Source: Nitrospirota bacterium (lineage in GTDB: Bacteria; Nitrospirota; UBA9217). Taken from it: 43,027 bases of DNA. The DNA is taken from NCBI GenBank assembly GCA_020052615.1, contig JAGVOT010000038.1:1-43027 (forward strand), written 5' to 3'. Below the pieces are notes generated by a model. It saw only the letters and a list, made by a program, of their open reading frames with translations. It ran no database searches and was not told the origin of the DNA. This document shows, one piece after another, positions 27,330 through 31,041 of this stretch; position 1 is the stretch's first letter; each line of letters begins with the position of its first letter. The translations under genes were made by a program, and so were the position numbers.

Positions 27330-28481
27330 TCACGTCCTGATCAGCCGGAAGAAGTTGTCCACCAGTTTGGGATTGAAGGACTTCCCGGCCCCGCCCTTCA
27401 GGATCGACTCGATCTTGCTCATGGGCTGGGGCTCCTGGTAGGACCGGCGGCTGCGCATGGCGTCGAACACGTCGGCGACGGAGATCATCTGGCTCGCGAT
27501 GTTCGGCGTCCAGCCGCCCTTGATGGAGGGATATCCCGTCCCGTCGAACTTCAGGTGGTGCTCCAGCGAGGCCAAGACCGCCAGCTTCGGGATCCCCTCC
27601 GTGCCCATCAGATACCGCGCCCCCTTGGTGGTATGGGTCTCGATGATCATGCGTTCTTCTGCGCTCAATTTCCCCTGCTTGTTCATGATCTCCTCGGGTA
27701 CGAAGAGCTTGCCGATGTCGTGGAGGAACGAGGCAACGCCGATCTGATGCAGGTGCTCGCCGGTGAAGCCCAGGGACTCTGCCTGGGCCATGGTCAGGAT
27801 GCCCACGTTCACCACGTGGGTGAAGGTATATTCGTGGGACGACTTGAGCGATGCCAGCATGCGCAGGGGGTTCACTTCCTCGCGGAAGCCCTTGATAAAG
27901 CGTTTGACCATCTCGTCAACGCCCCGAACGTCGATCTGCTTGTGCTTCTTGATGCGCAGGTACAGGTCCTTGAGCTCATCCAGCTCGGTCGTGGTGAGCT
28001 TGACCAGCTCTTCAAGCACCTCGGTCGGCGCTTCCTCGGCGCCGACCCATCCGCGCTGTCCGCCCCCGCCTGCCTGTTTGACCCGGAGCTCCACCTTGCC
28101 CAGTTTGATGAAGCTCGTCGCCTTGATGGATGCCGCTTCGGGTGTTGCCAGGTCCTGGATGAACGTCTGAAGCTCGGCCCGGGGGAGGCCCGCCACGAAA
28201 GTGACACGCTCGATGGATTTTCTCCGGAGGATCCGGATGAAGTTCGCCGCATAGGCGCTGTCCGAGGGAAACGGGCGGCCCCCTGCCACAAGATCGTTTC
28301 CGACAAGCATGACCGTTACTTCCGGGCTTGCCTGGAGCAGGCCTGCGAGCACACTATGGGTCTTGTCGACATACTGGCCCACCTGGGGGTGGTTTGCCGA
28401 ATAAAGGCCGATGTTCGTCACCGCCGCGGTCAGCTGCACGACAACCTTTACCAGTTCCTCTTGGACGTCCATCTCAGCCAT
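27330..28481 (-). CDS. HD-GYP protein with novel N-terminal domain
   Basis: Encodes 383 aa. The C-terminal HD-GYP domain has LHDIGKLFVPEE and HHLKFDGTGYP, so it is likely a cyclic-di-GMP phosphodiesterase. Residues 21-120 form an unassigned domain (Tyr27, His31, Asn62-Asp63, Val93-Thr94-Phe95, Gly98-Leu99, Phe107). The same domain, aligned without gaps at an offset of 22 residues, starts the HEAT protein gene at 31041. A repeat-filled gap of about 180 nt separates it from that module. Confidence 0.9.
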   Translation of the reverse strand: MAEMDVQEELVKVVVQLTAAVTNIGLYSANHPQVGQYVDKTHSVLAGLLQASPEVTVMLVGNDLVAGGRPFPSDSAYAANFIRILRRKSIERVTFVAGLPRAELQTFIQDLATPEAASIKATSFIKLGKVELRVKQAGGGGQRGWVGAEEAPTEVLEELVKLTTTELDELKDLYLRIKKHKQIDVRGVDEMVKRFIKGFREEVNPLRMLASLKSSHEYTFTHVVNVGILTMAQAESLGFTGEHLHQIGVASFLHDIGKLFVPEEIMNKQGKLSAEERMIIETHTTKGARYLMGTEGIPKLAVLASLEHHLKFDGTGYPSIKGGWTPNIASQMISVADVFDAMRSRRSYQEPQPMSKIESILKGGAGKSFNPKLVDNFFRLIRT

Positions 28482-28659: not shown

Positions 28660-29844
28660 CTATTTACTTTCCTTTCTTTCACCGAGCTTCCGGCACAGCA
28701 TCCGTATCTTGTCATCGTCGGACCGTTCACCGATCTTGACAAGCTCCGCGATGCTCTCCTTCGGGTACCGGCCAAGGGATTCGAAGAGCGTGACCTTCAT
28801 GCGGGCATGGCTCTTGCGGTACAGCGACCATCCCGCCTTCGCCAATTTTTCCAGGTCCGGGACCGCCCGGACATCGCCGATCTCACCGAGCACCCGGATG
28901 ATCTCCTCGTTCACGTCGTAGTCGGTCTCGAAGAGGATCGTTCGCTTGATCAGGGGCAGGATATCGCCGACCACTTCGGCAACACGGAACTGGCCGGCAA
29001 GGAGAACCGCAGTGGACGACACATCGGGGTCCCTGGAGTTGATCTCCTGCCGGAGGATCCCCGCGGCGGAGGGGTCCTTGAACCGGAGCAGCACCGCCAG
29101 TGCATCCATCCGCACTTTCGGGTCAACATGCTGCAGGAGCGGCTTGACCGCCGCGATCACATCGGATGTGCCTGCCCGCCGGATCAGCATCAGGAGGTTC
29201 CGCACGTAGTACACCCGCGGGTCCTGAAGCCGCTTGACCGCCTCGGCCACGGTGTCCTTGCCGAACGTACAGAGAAGGTCGAACAGGACCCGCCGACCGC
29301 CCGGCGCCGCATCGTACGAATAGATCTCCAGGAGACCGGGGACAAGGATCGGGCCGAGCGCCAGCATGAAGGCCTGCGAATCTTTCGCCCGGGTGCGCGA
29401 CCAGGTGTTGAACGCATCGAGGGACTTGTCGATGAAGGCGGGGTCCCAGAACACTTTCAGTGCCTCGGCTGCGGCAGCGCGGATGCCTTCGCCCTTCTTG
29501 TCCGAGAGGTGCCACCGCAGGGTCTGGAGGGTGTCCAGGAGCAGGGGAAAATGGCCGCTCGTCAGCATGTCCGGGACGATGGCGATGAGCTTCTTCGAGA
29601 ACTCCCGGTAATCCTCCTCGTCGATGTTCTCCTCCATGAAGGCCAGCACCGCCCTGCCGATCTGGAAGTCGAGGTGCTGGTCGTCCAGATCCTTGAGATA
29701 CGTCTCGGCGAAGAACCGGTCCTTGGCGGTGGCAGCCATGGTCTCCGCACGGCCCGATACGCTCTTCAGGATGTCGTCGTACTCCTTCTCAACATAGCCC
29801 TCATACTTTTCCCGGTCGAACAGCTTTGCCATGTGCTCGGGCAT
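28660..29844 (-). CDS. HEAT-repeat protein, C-terminal part
   Basis: Encodes 394 aa from ATG 29844, which has GGAG only 3 nt before it; ATG 29832 is an alternative. Helical repeats of HEAT type run through about 150-390, for example DVIAAVKPLLQHVDPKVRMDAL, DPSAAGILRQEI and DVRAVPDLEKLAK. It is in the same frame as the preceding gene, separated by one TGA and 18 codons rich in Gly, Ser and Thr. The two are probably one ancestral protein of about 794 codons. Likely a scaffold; no enzyme motif. The final codons and stop lie in the repeat arm. Confidence 0.8.
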   Translation of the reverse strand: MPEHMAKLFDREKYEGYVEKEYDDILKSVSGRAETMAATAKDRFFAETYLKDLDDQHLDFQIGRAVLAFMEENIDEEDYREFSKKLIAIVPDMLTSGHFPLLLDTLQTLRWHLSDKKGEGIRAAAAEALKVFWDPAFIDKSLDAFNTWSRTRAKDSQAFMLALGPILVPGLLEIYSYDAAPGGRRVLFDLLCTFGKDTVAEAVKRLQDPRVYYVRNLLMLIRRAGTSDVIAAVKPLLQHVDPKVRMDALAVLLRFKDPSAAGILRQEINSRDPDVSSTAVLLAGQFRVAEVVGDILPLIKRTILFETDYDVNEEIIRVLGEIGDVRAVPDLEKLAKAGWSLYRKSHARMKVTLFESLGRYPKESIAELVKIGERSDDDKIRMLCRKLGERKESK

Positions 29845-29898
29845 GATCTCCGGACCCGCGCCGTCTTTCCCCGCCGAGCTCGAACCGGTCCCCGTGCC

Positions 29899-31041
29899 TC
29901 AGGTGGTGCCCACGACACTGCCGAACCCCTTGGCGGCCCCGCCCGCTCCGCCTGCAGCGGTCACCTTGCCGCCGCCGGGCTGCGCCGTCGTCGTCTTGTC
30001 CCGCACGCTCGCCAGTTTGCCCAGAAGCCCTGTCAGCGTTGGTGATATCTCCCGTCCTTCCGAGCTCGCCTGCCTCAGCATGTCGATGATCATGTCGTCC
30101 CCAAGGCCGCCCAGCACCTCTTCGGATCCGGGGCTCGCGGCGTTCTCCGAAACGTTCTTGAACGCCGTGGAGAGGAACTGTTTCCTGATGCCGGGGTGAA
30201 GGTCCTTCAGCAGTTTGTTCAGGTTGGCAATGGTCTGTGACTGCTCCTCGGTAAGCTGTCTCTTTTCAGCCGACGTCCGGACATAGCTCGAGATGATGCG
30301 GTCGTAGCTCTGGACAGCGGCGCCGGGATCGAGCTTGCGATCGTTCAGGAGCCTGGCAAGCTCTGCAGGGTCGATCTGGGACGAGTCCTTCAGGGAAACT
30401 CCCTCGCCCGATGCGGCCAGCGTCCCCGTGGAAAGGAGCGAAACAAAATCCTGCCATACCCCCGCCCCGGGCTTGTCGCCCGCTTTTTCCCCCGGCTTCT
30501 GCCGGGATTTGAAGATCTCATTCTCCTCAGTGAGGTGGAAGCTGCCGTAGTCGATGGCCATCACGCGGATGTTCGGGATGCCGGCGTTCTCCACGACCTT
30601 TGCGATCCCGCCCATGGCCGTTATCTCGTCCGGCTTCGTGGTGATGATGCGATGGAAGCGGACCAGCTGTTCGCGGTCAAGCCCCCGGAGGAAGGTCACC
30701 GCGGCGATCCCCTGCTGGTTCATGGACAGGGCGAAATCCCGGTACACGGGATTCCGCTGGTCCAGATAGTCCTGGCCCACGAATAGCGTGTCCTTCGCCA
30801 CGCCGAGCGTCATCTCCTGACGGATCTCGAACAGTTTTACCAGGACCTCGTATGCGCGATCGATGCTCTTGGTGATCTGGATATGGCCGGGCGGGTAGAT
30901 GCTGACGTTCTTTCGGGAGATGTTCAGTTCGATGACCGCGTCGGAAAGCAGTTTCGTATCGATCGGGATCTCGCGCTCCGCGGGCTGCGGCGGCTTTTGC
31001 GAGGCGTGGGCTGGCGGATTCCTGTCCCGTTCTTCAGACAT
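29899..31041 (-). CDS. HEAT protein, N-terminal part (ends at in-frame TGA)
   Basis: Encodes 380 aa. A charged, Pro-rich start (1-25) is followed by the domain shared with the neighbouring HD-GYP protein (about 43-142: Tyr49, His53, Val115-Thr116-Phe117, Gly120-Leu121, Phe129). Residues about 210-345 are helical, and the end is a Gly/Ala/Thr linker (TTAQPGGGKVTAAGGAGG). The reading frame stops at TGA 29899-29901 in the middle of the linker and continues in frame with more Gly/Ser/Thr codons into the HEAT part. Confidence 0.75.
   Translation of the reverse strand: MSEERDRNPPAHASQKPPQPAEREIPIDTKLLSDAVIELNISRKNVSIYPPGHIQITKSIDRAYEVLVKLFEIRQEMTLGVAKDTLFVGQDYLDQRNPVYRDFALSMNQQGIAAVTFLRGLDREQLVRFHRIITTKPDEITAMGGIAKVVENAGIPNIRVMAIDYGSFHLTEENEIFKSRQKPGEKAGDKPGAGVWQDFVSLLSTGTLAASGEGVSLKDSSQIDPAELARLLNDRKLDPGAAVQSYDRIISSYVRTSAEKRQLTEEQSQTIANLNKLLKDLHPGIRKQFLSTAFKNVSENAASPGSEEVLGGLGDDMIIDMLRQASSEGREISPTLTGLLGKLASVRDKTTTAQPGGGKVTAAGGAGGAAKGFGSVVGTT

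Follow-up and report, generated by a model that had tools for sequence, protein, structure and literature searches.

A private in-frame TGA in the linker of a HEAT-repeat gene of a Nitrospirota bacterium, probably an ordinary nonsense codon on an unusual UGA-decoding background

The locus described here raises the question of what an in-frame TGA signifies when it interrupts an otherwise continuous HEAT-repeat gene: a plain nonsense codon, a mistake in the assembled sequence, a functional division of the gene into two, or a codon that is read through. Inspection of the reading frames of the window, i.e., of the whole 43,027-nucleotide stretch analyzed, shows a minus-strand frame that opens at ATG 31041 and runs for 380 codons up to the TGA (29901–29899), this first half spanning 29899–31041. 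Beyond the TGA the minus-strand frame is unchanged (GTGTGSSSAGKDGAGPEI), passing through ATG 29844 and ending with a TAG at 28662–28660, and this second half (28660–29898), consisting of 412 codons and the TAG, is in frame with the first, giving a gene of 794 codons with both stops included. This reproduces the same-frame coordinates and the description of the linker given in the first-pass annotation of this DNA.

The HEAT_2 repeats are confined to the second half (Pfam, E 1e-18), and a Pfam search with the first half returned no family. The two are joined by a linker rich in Gly, Ala, Ser, and Thr (residues 351–412, positions 29805–29991, minus strand), which makes up about 8% of the gene and is predicted to be coil. 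In the AlphaFold model, which was run with two sequences and is poor (pLDDT 41), the helices end at residue 350 and restart at residue 413, and the TGA, being codon 381, falls in the middle of this predicted 62-residue coil. On the 3′ side of the HEAT gene lies an HD-domain gene (27330–28481, minus strand, assigned by frame and Pfam), as is the case in most genomes of the family. The HEAT protein (29899–31041) and the downstream HD-domain protein (28140–28457, minus strand) have an N-terminal domain in common, which is without a Pfam family and to which similar stretches are found elsewhere in the proteins of these genomes.

A whole-genome search with a loose cut-off matched the first half in all 14 of the 14 genomes of the family, and the strong matches are single open frames of ∼630–860 codons, with the exception of the present genome and of one fragment at a contig edge. 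When the search was extended to 198 genomes of the phylum, 41 matches in 39 Nitrospirota genomes other than the present one were found to be single frames of 583–860 codons, the two-gene arrangement being seen in none of them; in one match (genome G141) a TAG is reported inside the matched stretch. The nearest relative (Hainich-H41-bin277-1, Nitrospiria) has one uninterrupted gene, to which the linker and the two halves align with a DNA identity of 88% and in which a Ser codon stands opposite the TGA; the two codons differ at two positions, one of which may have changed on the branch of the relative. The contig of the congener G004 ends within the HEAT half, placing that genome outside the linker comparison. 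Because in the relatives a single frame covers the two halves and the alignment holds at 88% identity, the continuity of the frame across the TGA is more than chance, and the HEAT locus is, judging by these homologues, ancestrally a single gene. This bears out the earlier proposal that a single coding sequence carries one stop in its linker, as well as the check for fused homologues suggested with it, since the relatives carry one gene and not two. As the nearest relative is uninterrupted and has a Ser codon at this site, the alignment makes the stop private to the present genome among the genomes compared.

Relative to this nearest relative, the part before the linker shows a dN of 0.045 and a dS of 0.491 (dN/dS ∼0.09), and the part after it a dN of 0.046 and a dS of 0.336 (dN/dS ∼0.14), which indicates purifying selection on both halves. 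When the changes in the second half are polarized, 18 nonsynonymous and 23 synonymous ones fall on the present branch, compared with 10 and 28, respectively, on that of the relative (p = 0.16), i.e., the excess of amino-acid changes on the present branch is not significant. Purifying selection on both halves implies that the stop is either recent or artefactual: the second half has not long been free of selection, or the gene is still intact in the organism.

The reading that we favor, with a probability of roughly 0.56, is that the TGA is an ordinary private nonsense substitution, genuine and recent, with no recoding behind it. According to this model, an ancestral two-part protein, in which a flexible linker connects a conserved N-terminal region to a C-terminal half of HEAT repeats, and which is encoded before the HD-domain gene, would have had one codon of its fast-evolving linker turned into TGA in the present genome alone. 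Termination at the TGA would then yield a 380-residue product, and the HEAT half would be re-initiated at ATG 29844 at most weakly. Consistent with plain nonsense, the genome has RF2, and TGA is used more often than either of the other stops, ending 609 of 1507 coding-like ORFs. The closest parallel appears, from its sequence, to be the conserved ebfC/ybaB gene (G000:C93:2217, minus strand), which has a private in-frame TAA in place of a Lys codon of the relative and is otherwise intact, its remainder aligning at 88% DNA identity. Private stops other than TGA in further sampled genes, and ebfC in particular, suggest that such changes arise at a low background rate whatever the codon. The HEAT gene resembles other nonsense-interrupted bacterial genes, be they recent pseudogenes or split genes, in that it belongs to a single-gene family and has one private stop with intact flanks; it differs from the usual ones in that its stop is located in a disordered linker, and both domains could therefore still fold if translated. 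It has to be noted that two observations count against plain nonsense, namely the position of the stop inside the linker, the region in which one would expect to find a stop that is tolerated or suppressed, and the occurrence of a candidate opal suppressor tRNA in the same genome. Among the explanations listed in the first-pass annotation, a recent nonsense mutation and a sequence error nonetheless provide the best fit, and read-through as selenocysteine is contradicted by the internal controls described below.

A consensus or assembly error, or else a minority strain variant, would mean that the gene of the organism is intact and that the TGA exists only in a metagenome-style assembly, which we consider possible, albeit rather unlikely. 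Such an error would be in keeping with a genome of 135 contigs and 97.8% completeness, which fits a metagenome-assembled genome, with the private stop in the widely conserved ebfC, with the frameshift at a T-run in a yedF-like gene, and with the purifying selection still seen on the second HEAT half. However, in a comparison of ∼80 genes with those of the nearest relative the HEAT stop is the sole clear internal stop, and therefore errors are not widespread in the assembly; the difference from the relative's codon at two positions, of which one is maybe the relative's own change, also speaks against an error.

It appears quite improbable that the gene has been split functionally, with the halves made separately and cooperating, and with the second arising by re-initiation or from a start of its own at ATG 29844. 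The stop is situated in the linker, the second half is conserved, and ATG 29844 lies 18 codons 3′ of the TGA and is preceded by GGAG, a motif three bases upstream on which separate translation had originally been proposed. The motif is indeed there (GGAG-ATC-ATG, 29842–29851, minus strand), but this possible internal start is probably coding sequence only: it is identical in the uninterrupted relative, where it codes for PEIM, and is therefore explained by the coding sequence and not by an evolved start, which leaves the proposal weak. In addition, the three-base gap between GGAG and ATG is short for Shine–Dalgarno spacing, and the two-gene form is absent from all relatives searched.

A different model would involve the second UCA tRNA of this genome (G000:C130:47997-48091), which has an 8-bp acceptor, a 4-bp T stem, a long variable arm, U73, and an encoded CCA, and which by sequence and fold is a candidate selC* tRNA-Cys; tRNAs of this type with these features have been described in several phyla, including Nitrospirae, and proposed as opal suppressors (PMC7609411). 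Insertion of Cys by this selC*-like tRNA-Cys (UCA) at the HEAT UGA, giving some full-length protein, is in our estimate quite improbable, and it is very improbable that the tRNA is an active natural opal suppressor for which the HEAT UGA serves as a SECIS-less, non-selenocysteine Cys codon. The distribution of the tRNA would agree with suppression, as it occurs in the present genome and one congener and is absent from the nearest relative (G005), which has the intact gene, and so would a TauE/SafE copy (G000:C30:5513, minus strand) with a TGA at an invariant Cys codon and no hairpin. That copy, however, also has an in-frame deletion that removes 21 bp from a conserved motif, and an intact paralogue exists (C36:49757-50518); moreover, the tRNA orthologues look decayed in G004 (C145, one T-stem mismatch) and in G012 (C24:23842-23926, degraded). 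SelB and CysRS are each present in one copy above the cut-off, with neither a dedicated CysRS nor a second SelB found above it in the genome, and TGA stop usage is not depressed. Broad UGA suppression would lead one to expect mostly TGA among the interruptions, yet a scan for in-frame stops flanked on either side by coding signal, covering 1.91 Mb or 48% of the genome, gave small numbers without a UGA excess among the non-selenocysteine cases, with two TGA (HEAT and the TauE copy), at least two TAA (ebfC and yihY), and one TAG (an activase remnant). The present genome is thus like the proposed selC* system (PMC7609411) in carrying a candidate tRNA and unlike it in that no selB*/cysS* was seen beside the tRNA and the genes have no UGA excess, and suppression of the HEAT stop by this tRNA is possible but unsupported. 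The surroundings of the tRNA contain a decayed CoA-dehydratase activase remnant, an HdrB-like gene, and the frameshifted yedF-like gene.

That the HEAT UGA encodes selenocysteine is scarcely credible, being excluded by the hairpin controls and the conservation of the site, and genome-wide reassignment of UGA is ruled out by TGA being the commonest stop and by the presence of RF2. The genome itself, judged from its gene content, decodes UGA as selenocysteine: besides RF2, it encodes a canonical tRNA-Sec and SelB, and the same scan of 48% of the genome yielded about 12 candidate selenoprotein TGAs at Cys-type positions. The candidates, most of them named by motif only, comprise a peroxiredoxin, an MvhD-like protein, a glutaredoxin-like protein, MsrA, a [NiFe] hydrogenase, a multihaem-type protein, a pyridine nucleotide-disulphide reductase, two rhodanese-like proteins, a heavy-metal-binding type, and two DsrE-like proteins, and Cys-type TGAs are located at G000:C36:107778, C37:27400, C37:29636, C30:16048, C16:9920, C21:6515, C113:109761, C131:75066, C29:1457, C36:48512, and C113:79330. 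This candidate selenoproteome is large for a Nitrospirota genome. Hairpins were scored by the best perfect stem centered 17–30 bases 3′ of the UGA and compared with random codons, hairpin free energy alone giving no discrimination in this GC-rich genome. Six selenocysteine candidates reach stem scores of 5.5–8, at background frequencies of 0.01–0.12, whereas the best stem at the HEAT TGA, 4 bp long and including one G-U, scores 3.5, a value that 59% of random codons attain, and that of the TauE copy scores 2.5 (attained by 90%). The HEAT gene therefore shares with bacterial selenoprotein genes an in-frame UGA in a selenocysteine-using genome, but its UGA is without a suitable hairpin, lies at no Cys or redox site, and is not conserved, the codon being Ser in the nearest relative and unconserved elsewhere.

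Among these candidates, the large subunit of the [NiFe] hydrogenase (G000:C85:70331-72025) has an in-frame TGA and a hairpin that are conserved in six genomes. In the L1 motif (RICGV-UGA), the TGA occupies the position of the second Cys, the L2 motif having all its Cys residues. Selenocysteine in the alpha subunits of NiFe hydrogenases is listed at UxxC (PMC13188914), and the L1 TGA may therefore be an unreported selenocysteine site.

Taken alone, the finding of a private nonsense codon in a single environmental genome is of minor significance. Read-through of UGA at this locus would matter, given that the genome has a second UCA tRNA in addition to a true tRNA-Sec, and the selenocysteine sites with their hairpins act as internal controls that make the question of read-through directly testable. 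The HEAT stop is probably an ordinary event on an unusual UGA-decoding background, a nonsense codon that is real and recent or, otherwise, a consensus error.
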